Part shown: in pieces, positions 14,281-29,189 of the stretch | Numbering within the stretch: the stretch's first letter is position 1 | Layout: every line of letters starts with the position of its first letter | Origin: Methanocaldococcus sp. FS406-22 | Lineage (GTDB): Archaea; AGJL01; Methanococci; Methanococcales; Methanocaldococcaceae | Direction of reading: 5' to 3' | NCBI RefSeq assembly: GCF_000025525.1 | Contig: NC_013887.1 | Location: 1,002,729 to 1,066,728, forward strand | Length of the DNA: 64,000 bases | The notes under the pieces: generated by a model | Told to the model about the DNA's origin: nothing | What the model saw: only the letters and a program-made list of their open reading frames with translations | Database searches by the model: none | Program-made: the position numbers and the translations under genes

Positions 14281-14391
14281 GCCGAGGTGGCTTAGCTGGT
14301 TATAGCGCCCGGCTCATACGGATATCCCAGCCCTACGGCTGGGTCCTGGGAAACCGGGAGGTCGAGGGTTCGAATCCCTCCCTCGGCACCA
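14281..14391 (+). tRNA. tRNA-Met (CAU), elongator, with intron
   Basis: The acceptor stem GCCGAGG pairs with CCTCGGC (14381-14387), the T-loop is GTTCGAATC and CCA is encoded at 14389-14391. The anticodon loop CTCATA is interrupted after the base 3' of the anticodon by an intron of about 34 nt (roughly 14319-14352), after which the anticodon stem resumes with ACCGGG. The intron can fold on itself (CCCAGCC/GGCTGGG) into the bulge-helix-bulge that the archaeal splicing endonuclease cuts. Boundaries may be off by a base or two. Confidence 0.95.
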
Positions 14392-20039: not shown

Positions 20040-20852
20040 TCAGTAATAAACTTTACAAACAATAGGACTTTTTAAAATAGATATGGCATCCTCTAAGGTT
20101 TCTTTTTTTGAAATGCAGAATAATGTGTTTCCCAACATAGATTGAGATGCTCCAACTGTAAATTTTAAGTCATTACAAACATCTAAAATTCTATCATCTA
20201 TCAATTCAGTATTTACAGCAAACTCATAAGAAAGCCTAACAAAATTCTCCAACGTTGGATTTTTCAAAAGCTCATTTAAACATTTATTGCCAAATTCATT
20301 TATCTTTTTAATCCATTTTTCATTGGTAATTATCTCTTTTGTCTCTTTCTTTCCAAAAATCTCAATTATAACATAGTAATCATCACCAACAACTATTTTT
20401 TCAACGTCTATAGGAAAGCCAGGAGCTTTTCTTATAACAAAGCCCTTAACATATTGAGCTATGACATCCCCTAACCCAGTTCCACACTCTACTTCACTTA
20501 TATGAGCTATCTCCACATAATTATCATTTAGATTTAACATTTCATTTAGTTTTTTAGCTAATACCAAAGCACAAGCTCCAGACATTCCCAATCCACTACC
20601 TAAAGGAAAATTAGATGAAAAGATGATATCATAATTCTCATTGTAACCAAATTTTTTATAATGCTCAACAACCTTTTCAACGGCACAGATATCTACTCTC
20701 TCATTGTTATAAAAAACATTTCCTCTTCCTTCTTTTAATTCTAAACTCACACCATTATCTACAGTAATTCCGGCTCCTGTAGAACCTGTTTTTAATTTAT
20801 CAGAGTGTTTATAAATTGTAAAAAATCCTGTTATATGCCCTGGAGCAAACAT
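20040..20852 (-). CDS. Pantoate kinase (GHMP family)
   Basis: 270 residues. It begins FAPGHITGFFTIY, followed by GSTGAGITVDNGV and the ATP-binding GHMP loop GSGLGMSGACAL. These match archaeal pantoate kinase, which with phosphopantothenate synthetase replaces the bacterial route to coenzyme A. The ATG follows GAGGTTGAAGT. The 3' end abuts the end of CRISPR array 2. Confidence 0.9.
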   Translation of the reverse strand: MFAPGHITGFFTIYKHSDKLKTGSTGAGITVDNGVSLELKEGRGNVFYNNERVDICAVEKVVEHYKKFGYNENYDIIFSSNFPLGSGLGMSGACALVLAKKLNEMLNLNDNYVEIAHISEVECGTGLGDVIAQYVKGFVIRKAPGFPIDVEKIVVGDDYYVIIEIFGKKETKEIITNEKWIKKINEFGNKCLNELLKNPTLENFVRLSYEFAVNTELIDDRILDVCNDLKFTVGASQSMLGNTLFCISKKETLEDAISILKSPIVCKVYY

Positions 20853-21000
20853 ACTTCAACCTCCTTTAATTTAAGGACAAAAAAGCTAAAATTTTATATT
20901 ATTGATTAAATTTTAATCTTTATTGTTAATGATAAAATAAAAAATAAAAATTTTTAATTCTTAAGTTTATCTCTCAAAGTTTTATCAACAATTATTATCT

Positions 21001-21028
21001 ACCCATAGGACATCGTTCTTATTGGCAC
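21001..21028 (+). repeat. Short palindromic repeat, copy 1
   Basis: Reads ACCCATAGGACATCGTTCTT then ATTGG; it is a degenerate copy of the unit at 54016-54048 and of the inverse of 22961-22990. Confidence 0.5.
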
Positions 21029-21084
21029 AGTTTAAGCTAACGCTTGTAAGCTTTATATATTGTAATACTCAATATGAATATTTC

Positions 21085-21258
21085 GAAAATGACTATCCTT
21101 CCAATGAAGTCGATGAGCTAAGCGAGGTGGAGGGGGATAGGATTCCAGTGAGTGTTCGGGGAACTCGTCCCCTATAGACGGGGTAACCTGGGCACTCACT
21201 GTCGACAGGGGGATGAAATAGCATGTGTGCTCACAAAAGCACACATACTATAGACCCC
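21085..21258 (+). ncRNA. GC-rich structured ncRNA candidate
   Basis: A GC-rich island in AT-rich intergenic DNA, 25-30 bp downstream of a TATA box (CTTTATATAT, 21051-21060). A 9-bp stem joins CAGTGAGTG (21146-21154) with CACTCACTG (21193-21201) and encloses smaller helices (CGGGGA...TCCCC, GACGGGG). A second hairpin at the 3' side, ATGTGTGCT...AGCACACAT (21223-21246), is followed by CCCCTTTT, a likely terminator. No open frame of note spans it on the + strand. High GC in such genomes marks structural RNAs. I do not recognise the family; the ends are approximate. Confidence 0.6.
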
Positions 21259-21260
21259 TT

Positions 21261-21704
21261 TTATCTCCCAAACGCCCTATCGATAATAATATCAACTATT
21301 CTATCATCAGCACCTATTGGCTCTCTATAGATAATTTCAACACCATCTGGAATCTCTAATTTTTCATGTTCGTGATGATGGTGGTGATGATGGTGATGTC
21401 CATGGCTGTGTTCATGCTCATGATGATGTTCATGGTTATCTTCAATCAACCCCAACAATCTTGGAATATCTCTTGTTGTATGGATACCATGAGCTAAGAA
21501 AACAGGAACAACAATGATTTTTTTAGCTCCTTGCTCTATAGCTTTTTTAACTGCTTGAGGGATTGTTGGTTCATTAAACTCCATTAAACCAATCTCAACA
21601 ATTGGGAATATGTTCCTTTCCTTGACCTTTTCAGCCAACTTTACTAAAAGCTCTTTGCTGTATGGTAATCTGCTTCCATGTCCTACCAACACTAATGCTT
21701 CCAT
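21261..21704 (-). CDS. cfbA: CfbA/CbiX-short sirohydrochlorin Ni/Co chelatase with His-rich loop
   Basis: 147 residues with the chelatase start ALVLVGHGSRLPYSKELL and the metal-site motif VPVFLAHGIHTTRDIPRLLG. The short form is a homodimeric enzyme that inserts nickel for coenzyme F430 or cobalt for cobamides. A His-rich insertion near residues 93-116 contains a run of nine His and several HEH/HGH triplets, probably a metal store or delivery loop. The ATG follows GGTGAGTTC. It converges with the ncRNA candidate on the opposite strand. Confidence 0.93.
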   Translation of the reverse strand: MEALVLVGHGSRLPYSKELLVKLAEKVKERNIFPIVEIGLMEFNEPTIPQAVKKAIEQGAKKIIVVPVFLAHGIHTTRDIPRLLGLIEDNHEHHHEHEHSHGHHHHHHHHHEHEKLEIPDGVEIIYREPIGADDRIVDIIIDRAFGR

Positions 21705-27550: not shown

Positions 27551-27970
27551 GTGGAATTGAAGTCCCCACCAAAGAAATATCACCACAACAAAAATAAGCA
27601 CATCGTGTATAGTTGTCAATATCATGTAGTATTCTGCCCGAAATATCGGAGACCAGTTCTAACTGGTAAGATAAAAGAACGATTAGAAGAATTAATTTTA
27701 GAAAAATGCAAAGAACTAAATACTGAAGTTTTAGACATGGTTATCGCACCAGACCATGTTCATCTGTTGTTAGATGCCGACCCAACAATCGGAATAAATA
27801 AAATCGTTACACAAATAAAAGGATACACTTCGAACAAACTTAGAAACGAATTTCCAGAGCTAAGAAGAAAACTGCCTACACTATGGACTCGAGGAAGATT
27901 CATTTCAACCGTTGGAACTGTGACCCTCGATGTTATTAGACAATACATAGATAGTCAAAAAGGTGTCTAA
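27551..27970 (+). CDS. tnpA: IS200/IS605 transposase TnpA (HUH/Y1)
   Basis: 139 residues. It has the HUH motif in APDHVHLLL (His69 and His71) and the nucleophile Tyr132 in VIRQYIDS, so it looks intact. It cuts and joins single-stranded ends of the element. The GTG at 27551 is chosen because GGTGATAGTT precedes it. It overlaps tnpB by 8 bp. Confidence 0.94.
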   Translation: MELKSPPKKYHHNKNKHIVYSCQYHVVFCPKYRRPVLTGKIKERLEELILEKCKELNTEVLDMVIAPDHVHLLLDADPTIGINKIVTQIKGYTSNKLRNEFPELRRKLPTLWTRGRFISTVGTVTLDVIRQYIDSQKGV

Positions 27971-29189
27971 ATTGGAAGTAACTCGAGTTCTAACAATAAA
28001 CCTAACGAGAAAACTAACGAAAGAACAATGGATTATTCTTAACCATTTAACTTACTCTGCATCAAAATTGTGGAACGTGGCTAACTATCAAATAATACAA
28101 GGTAATGTTAAATTATCTGAATTAGAAAAGAAGTTAAAGGATAACTTCTGGTATAAAAATCTCCATTCACAATCGGCTCAAGCAGTTCTACAAAAACTAA
28201 AAATTGCATGGATTAACTTTTTTAAACAACATGCTAAGAGACCAAGATTCCAACCGAAAGATGGGCATTTTCCAGTCAAATGGAAGAAAGATGGGTTTAG
28301 AATTATTGGTAACATGCTAAGATTATCCTTATCTAAGCAGACAAGAAACTATCTAAAAGAAAGGCACGGCATCGAGTCCAAGTATTTATGGGTAGGGCTT
28401 CCGAAAGCTCTACCGCTCGATGCCGTGCAGGTTAAGGAAGTTGAAATAGTTCCACACGATATTTATGGAGAAAGATTTTATGTTTTGCACTTGATTTATA
28501 AGAAGGAAGTTAATCCTCATAAGCCAAAGGAAGAAAAAGTAATGGCTATCGATTTGGGGGTGAGGAATTTAGCAACGGTTGTTGTCGAAGGGGAGAAACA
28601 GCCAGTGATTTTTGACGGGAGAATTTTATTATCTAAGTTAAGATGGTTTGCTAAGGAGACTGCAAGGATTAAATCGATAATTGCAGAGCAGGGGTTAAAG
28701 AGTTGTAAGCGATTAGCAAGATTAGCAGTAAAGGAGAGAAATTACGTTAAGGATTATATTCATAAAATTAGTAGGTGGATTGTAGATTTGGCTAATAATA
28801 ATGGAGTTTCAAGAATTGTTATCGGTGATTTAAGTAAAAGTATAACTAAAATCGATATCGGGGATAGAGTTAATCAGCAATTGCATAAAATTCCATTTGG
28901 CAAGCTTATTAATATGATAATGTATAAAGCAGAAGAGTTAGGAATTAAAGTAGAACAAATCGATGAAAGCTATACTTCTCAAAAGTGTAGTATATGCGGA
29001 ATGATAAGGAAATCGAACAGGAAATATAGAGGTTTGTATGTTTGCTCTAAATGCGGAACAGTAATTAATGCTGATGTTAATGGTGCAAGGAATATTTTGT
29101 TTAAGGTAGTCCCGAACCCCGAAAGGGGTAGGGATAGTGGGCTTGGCAACCCATGGAGGGTGAGGGTTTTAAACCCTCTGCTCTCCTAA
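27963..29189 (+). CDS. tnpB: TnpB (RNA-guided nuclease, RuvC fold), variant RuvC-II site
   Basis: 408 residues, GTG start at 27963. RuvC-I is MAIDLGVRNLA (Asp197), the zinc ribbon is CSICG...CSKCG, and RuvC-III is NADVNGARNI (Asp371). At RuvC-II, where the canonical protein has Glu (IxxEDL), this one reads IVIGDLSKS with Gly288. A Glu at 335 in QIDESYTSQKCS, just before the zinc ribbon, might stand in for it. The protein is full-length and has no stops. Its 3' end is GC-rich and can fold, as expected for the guide (omega) RNA scaffold. Confidence 0.92.
   Translation: MSKLEVTRVLTINLTRKLTKEQWIILNHLTYSASKLWNVANYQIIQGNVKLSELEKKLKDNFWYKNLHSQSAQAVLQKLKIAWINFFKQHAKRPRFQPKDGHFPVKWKKDGFRIIGNMLRLSLSKQTRNYLKERHGIESKYLWVGLPKALPLDAVQVKEVEIVPHDIYGERFYVLHLIYKKEVNPHKPKEEKVMAIDLGVRNLATVVVEGEKQPVIFDGRILLSKLRWFAKETARIKSIIAEQGLKSCKRLARLAVKERNYVKDYIHKISRWIVDLANNNGVSRIVIGDLSKSITKIDIGDRVNQQLHKIPFGKLINMIMYKAEELGIKVEQIDESYTSQKCSICGMIRKSNRKYRGLYVCSKCGTVINADVNGARNILFKVVPNPERGRDSGLGNPWRVRVLNPLLS

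Follow-up and report, generated by a model that had tools for sequence, protein, structure and literature searches.

The DNA analysed here, referred to as the window, is a stretch of 64,000 nucleotides (G000:C1:1002729-1066728) from a Methanocaldococcus genome of 1.77 Mb in two contigs. On its + strand, a candidate RNA gene occupies positions 21085-21258, flanked by a GHMP-kinase gene (20040-20852, - strand) and by cfbA, a gene of the CbiX family (21261-21704, - strand), whose stop codon overlaps the T-run found 3' of the RNA. The initial annotation had described this stretch as a GC-rich island, and its GC content is indeed 51%, vs. 31.6% window-wide. When all 174-nt stretches of the window are compared, it is the second strongest GC peak, the SRP RNA alone being higher. 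Elsewhere in the window, Rfam finds a tRNA match of 108 nt at 14281-14388 (+), which ARAGORN misses; it is oriented divergently from tRNA-Leu and probably carries an intron.

A TATA box had been announced upstream of the RNA, and the sequence AAGCTTTATATA was found at 21048-21059 (+). It lies at the expected distance, ~25 nt before position 21085, and is kept in both copies of the RNA present in this genome. Just 3' of the TATA box, comparison of the two copies reveals an imperfect dyad, AATACTC-AATAT-GAATATT (21064-21082), which is perfect (AATACTC/GAGTATT) in the second copy. Judging by its sequence, it is a possible operator, this function being a guess.

The + strand of the RNA stretch folds at -78.7 kcal/mol, vs. 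-55.2 ± 4.5 kcal/mol for shuffled sequences (z -5.2, with none of 200 shuffles as good), while the - strand fold is weaker (z -3.4). Three hairpin domains make up the predicted scaffold (21085-21258, +). Domain 1 (21094-21140), defined from alignment A4 and its pair counts, has a stem pairing 21094-21102 with 21132-21140, which encloses TGAAGTCGATGAGCTAAGCGAGGTGGAGG, the most conserved segment of the RNA. Domain 2 (21146-21201) consists of a stem (21146-21161/21186-21201) with an inner hairpin, and is 25-31 nt longer in the homologues. It contains the 9-bp stem with inner helices that had been proposed earlier, CAGTGAGTG (21146-21154) pairing perfectly with CACTCACTG (21193-21201). Domain 3 (21207-21259) corresponds to the predicted 3' hairpin, and combines a GGGG/CCCC stem, a kink-turn-like loop formed by GATGAA (21212-21217) and AGA (21252-21254), and a long hairpin (21218-21251). 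The kink-turn pattern GAUGAA/AGA is found in four of the six RNA sequences compared, the loop of the second copy being deviant, and both sides are changed in 7 of the 12 pairs of the upper stem. The conserved end of the RNA is the CCCC at 21258, precisely where the initial annotation had placed it. The T-rich end, previously cited in favor of a discrete RNA, is not supported as a conserved terminator: its TTTT overlaps the cfbA stop codon and is not preserved in relatives outside the own genome, the T-run being flanking DNA that leads into this stop codon.

Searching the own genome yielded one further copy (C1:774116-774316), 89% identical to the first. This identity starts at the TATA box (21048-21059), which forms the left border of the shared segment; copy 2 thus begins at the promoter, and it stops just past the scaffold end, between flanks unrelated to those of copy 1. 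The copies differ at 17 positions (window 21085-21261 vs. L004 6141-6317), all of them transitions, which is notable because the background at the cfbA locus is only about 2:1 transitions. Copy 2 folds at -80.7, better than 99.5% of randomized versions of copy 1 that carry as many transitions (P 0.005). A 63-aa open reading frame on the - strand was considered and rejected as coding, since the copies are 75% identical as protein vs. 89% as DNA, and it has no other match. Copy 2 is located within a 3.95-kb insertion (L062 11573-15521, equivalent to L004 3573-7521; G000:C1 about 771572-775520) that is absent at the colinear loci of three other genomes (G007, G012, and G005). In addition to the RNA, this strain-specific island encodes a TnpB, a NAL1/trypsin-like protein, for which none of the 13 other genomes in the genus gave a match, and small open reading frames. 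Its TnpB gene, 0.5 kb from copy 2, is of a different subfamily and comes with a structured 3' region of its own. Copy 1 is solo, with no adjacent tnpB.

The site of copy 1 bears traces of other repeats. A decayed remnant, made of a duplication of the cfbA 3' end and a REP-like repeat, covers 20966-21047. At the same place, the M. jannaschii-like genome G007 harbors a REP-like repeat between perfect 31-bp direct repeats of the cfbA 3' end (L010 about 1381-1411 and 1498-1528); G012 has a shorter version of this arrangement, and a decayed version is seen at 20966-21000 of the window, left of the promoter. With a REP remnant beside its promoter, the RNA therefore sits in a spacer that earlier took up other repeats. 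Its position adjoining cfbA looks like an insertion site rather than a functional link. The genus also has an intergenic repeat in dispersed locations, AATTTACACCTCCGAGCGTAAGCGAGGAGGTGTTAG, in many cases with a CCCATAGGG..CCCTATTGG hairpin; there are 19 matches in the present genome (L029-L044) and 38 in G007, and it also occurs in G012 and others. The likeness between the RNA and the REP repeat of the genus is confined to a short motif, GAGC(G)TAAGCGAGG.

The two local copies served to build a covariance model, which was run on 36 Methanococcales genomes, then on 394 archaeal genomes. Among the Methanococcales, the 35 others, including the 13 congeners, gave no match, and the RNA is therefore not of an hgc type common to the genus. 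Strong matches were obtained in four of the 394 archaeal genomes: G246 (7.9e-24), G263 (4.6e-22), G062 (1.5e-18), and G210 (1.8e-7). The first three belong to one family (f7), presumably Thermococcales, and G210 to a different one (f25). The RNA comparison thus covers six sequences in all, and the association with tnpB described below comes from two lineages. Two weak matches, in G321 and G358 (E 0.005; L067 and L068), are without the domain-3 end and have no tnpB match nearby; they look like chance. No match to the RNA was found in plasmids, phages, and viral contigs, nor did exact or purine/pyrimidine patterns of it appear in genome contigs.

In alignment A4, which was based on sequence only, both sides are changed in 15 of 56 pairs, a count equaled by 2 of 500 shuffles, and 93% of the cells are paired, vs. 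37-50% when the partners are slid. When the structure is taken solely from the two local copies, each homologue keeps 39-43 of 47-48 pairs and shows 10-11 double changes, of which 8-10 are compensatory. Non-Watson-Crick cells on the + strand comprise 46 G-U and 10 A-C, an excess that indicates an RNA on the + strand, even if the G-U count is somewhat biased upward by the choice of the structure with RNA energies. The unpaired loops are highly conserved as well. Covariation in relatives, which had been suggested as a check, was found in distant archaea in the form of compensatory changes; the other Methanococcales provide no homologue. Rfam returned no match for the RNA, either in the window or in the loci L063-L066, at gathering or permissive thresholds, RAGATH-18 included, in agreement with the initial annotation, which could assign no family. 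Together with the promoter kept in copy 2, the covariation in homologues strongly supports the earlier proposal of a discrete + strand RNA gene: 21085-21258 is very probably a real structured RNA gene of a family absent from Rfam.

Besides homology and a shared structure, the homologues display a divergent linkage to TnpB and a scaffold that ends where the element ends. All four strong homologues are transcribed divergently from, and lie upstream of, a TnpB-family gene (L063 1876-2958; the G263 gene in L071; L065, where a frameshift or stop interrupts the gene; and L066 1817-2830), and this linkage is found in at least two lineages, since G210 is outside the f7 trio. TIGR01765 is matched by the proteins of G246 and G210, which also have weak matches to TIGR01766 and NF040570. 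In an alignment inspected by eye, the three acidic positions of RuvC are retained in these two proteins, and the zinc finger is missing; a comparison of the TnpB-like proteins with solved structures gave no sequence match. A small open reading frame separates the RNA from tnpB; by eye, its product is RHH-like in all f7 loci, while that of G210 is AbrB-like. G246, G263, and G062 have 1.39-1.45 kb in common between unrelated flanks, with abrupt borders; they therefore qualify as mobile elements, and the RNA 3' end forms one of their borders. The borders lie at GGGGTC, which corresponds in reverse complement to GACCCC, the end of the RNA, and at TAGGC just after tnpB. No transposase was seen in these ~1.4-kb elements, and no shared target-adjacent or flank motif is visible among the three loci.

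As the homologues, from distant heat-loving archaea, travel with TnpB genes in small mobile elements, a guide RNA scaffold is the most likely identity of the RNA, and the locus is probably a TnpB-type (omega-RNA/reRNA-like) scaffold that stands alone here and carries its own promoter. In TnpB systems, scaffold and element share an end, and the guide is transcribed from the neighboring host DNA (e.g., PMC8612924, PMC11061315). In the related elements, the RNA would run outward from one end, divergently from the small DNA-binding-protein reading frame and the TnpB gene. With the scaffold ending precisely at the border of the element, transcription would proceed into host DNA, of which the next ~16-20 nt would constitute the guide. 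Transposing the homologues' element borders to the present locus, the putative guide would be TTTTATCTCCCAAACGCCCT (21259-21278, +), at the 3' end of cfbA, a sequence for which no second match was found in the window. In this reading, the RNA would be transcribed and bound by TnpB, with the flank used as a guide. Solo copies would either act in trans or be relics, copy 1 perhaps being served by another TnpB, such as that encoded by the canonical zinc-finger TnpB gene at 27963-29189 (+), 6.7 kb from the RNA. Counting against this assignment, the RNA is divergent from tnpB, copy 1 is without adjacent tnpB, and the TnpB near copy 2 comes from a different subfamily. The RNA of known TnpB elements is encoded on the tnpB strand and either overlaps the 3' end of this gene or follows it.

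The omega-RNA of IS200/IS605 elements such as ISDra2 resembles the present RNA in being a structured scaffold that ends at the element border, from which a flank-derived 3' sequence is expected, and in having a TnpB-family gene within the same element, as is the case for the four homologues, copy 1 being solo (PMC8612924). Nevertheless, IS200/IS605 omega-RNA overlaps the tnpB 3' end, whereas the present RNA is divergent and has its own promoter, and the TnpB-like proteins of the present elements are without zinc finger, unlike IS200/IS605 TnpB (PMC8612924). The reRNA of IS607 TnpB, derived from RAGATH-18, is about 184 nt long and is reported to contain a possible kink-turn, with G-rich element ends (PMC11061315). 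Size, possible kink-turn, G-rich element ends, and a TnpB-related partner are common to both RNAs, but RAGATH-18 RNA is found immediately 3' of tnpB, while the present RNA is divergent and has no Rfam match (PMC11061315).

Among the alternatives, the one that survives best accepts a guide RNA elsewhere, and regards both copies of the present genome as dead relics, or copy 1 as no more than an RNA antisense to the 3' end of cfbA. This would fit with the lack of an adjacent partner from the same TnpB subfamily, the antisense extension of copy 1 into cfbA, and the departure of the copy 2 loop from the kink-turn pattern. However, both copies retain promoter and fold despite 10% divergence, whereas loss of stability would be expected in a relic; this explanation is less probable than the main one. 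Rather improbable is a role of the hairpins as DNA, namely as the subterminal recognition end of a TnpB element (IS605/IS607-like), with MITE-like solo copies moved in trans and an RNA appearance that is incidental or secondary. While the conserved block extends exactly to the element border, IS605-type elements typically have hairpin ends, and there are two dispersed copies without tnpB, several features argue for RNA instead: G-U cells exceed A-C cells (46 vs. 10, though in a structure chosen with RNA energies), the + strand folds better than the - strand, as expected of RNA, unpaired loops are highly conserved, and a TATA box is found at the expected distance in both copies.

Some hgc RNAs of hyperthermophilic archaea, namely HgcE, HgcF, and HgcG, turned out to be H/ACA guides (PMC4652768). 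The present RNA shares with hgc RNAs the GC-rich island, the TATA promoter, and the AT-rich genome, but it shows no clear H/ACA signature and no significant match, HgcF at only E 0.5 in the Rfam search being due to chance. H/ACA guides have a guide pocket, an 8-11 bp GA stem leading to a kink-turn, and an ACA located 14-16 nt from the pocket; all folds retrieved by a loose descriptor scan conflict with the covarying structure, and copy 2 has AUA in place of the domain 2 ACA of copy 1. CTGA, looked for as a test for box C/D sRNAs (C box RUGAUGA, D box CUGA), was found in neither copy. In spite of the GC island, the TATA box, and the kink-turn-like loop, an ordinary archaeal stable RNA unrelated to transposons (hgc type: H/ACA, C/D guide, or other L7Ae-binding RNA) is thus highly implausible, given that the present RNA is missing in the other 35 Methanococcales, without Rfam match or CTGA box, predicted to fold without an open guide pocket, and accompanied by tnpB in its homologues.

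Returning to the guide RNA scaffold, a bolder and still doubtful proposal is that these loci represent a separate archaeal class of TnpB systems, combining an independent, divergent guide-RNA gene, a repressor-like reading frame, and a zinc-finger-less TnpB, in which promoter-bearing solo copies would leave the element, gain a guide from the host, and could act in trans. Cas12 arose from OMEGA (TnpB) systems. If the assignment is true, an RNA family new to Rfam would be added to these systems, along with a new gene order, its newness being judged against published systems such as those of PMC8612924 and PMC11061315. The elements would also supply heat-stable candidates for testing, and genetics exist for the Methanocaldococcus strain FS406-22 (PMC8809328). 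Finally, a promoter-bearing guide RNA that is separable from the nuclease gene would be a natural intermediate step from guides embedded in transposons to CRISPR-like guides acting in trans.
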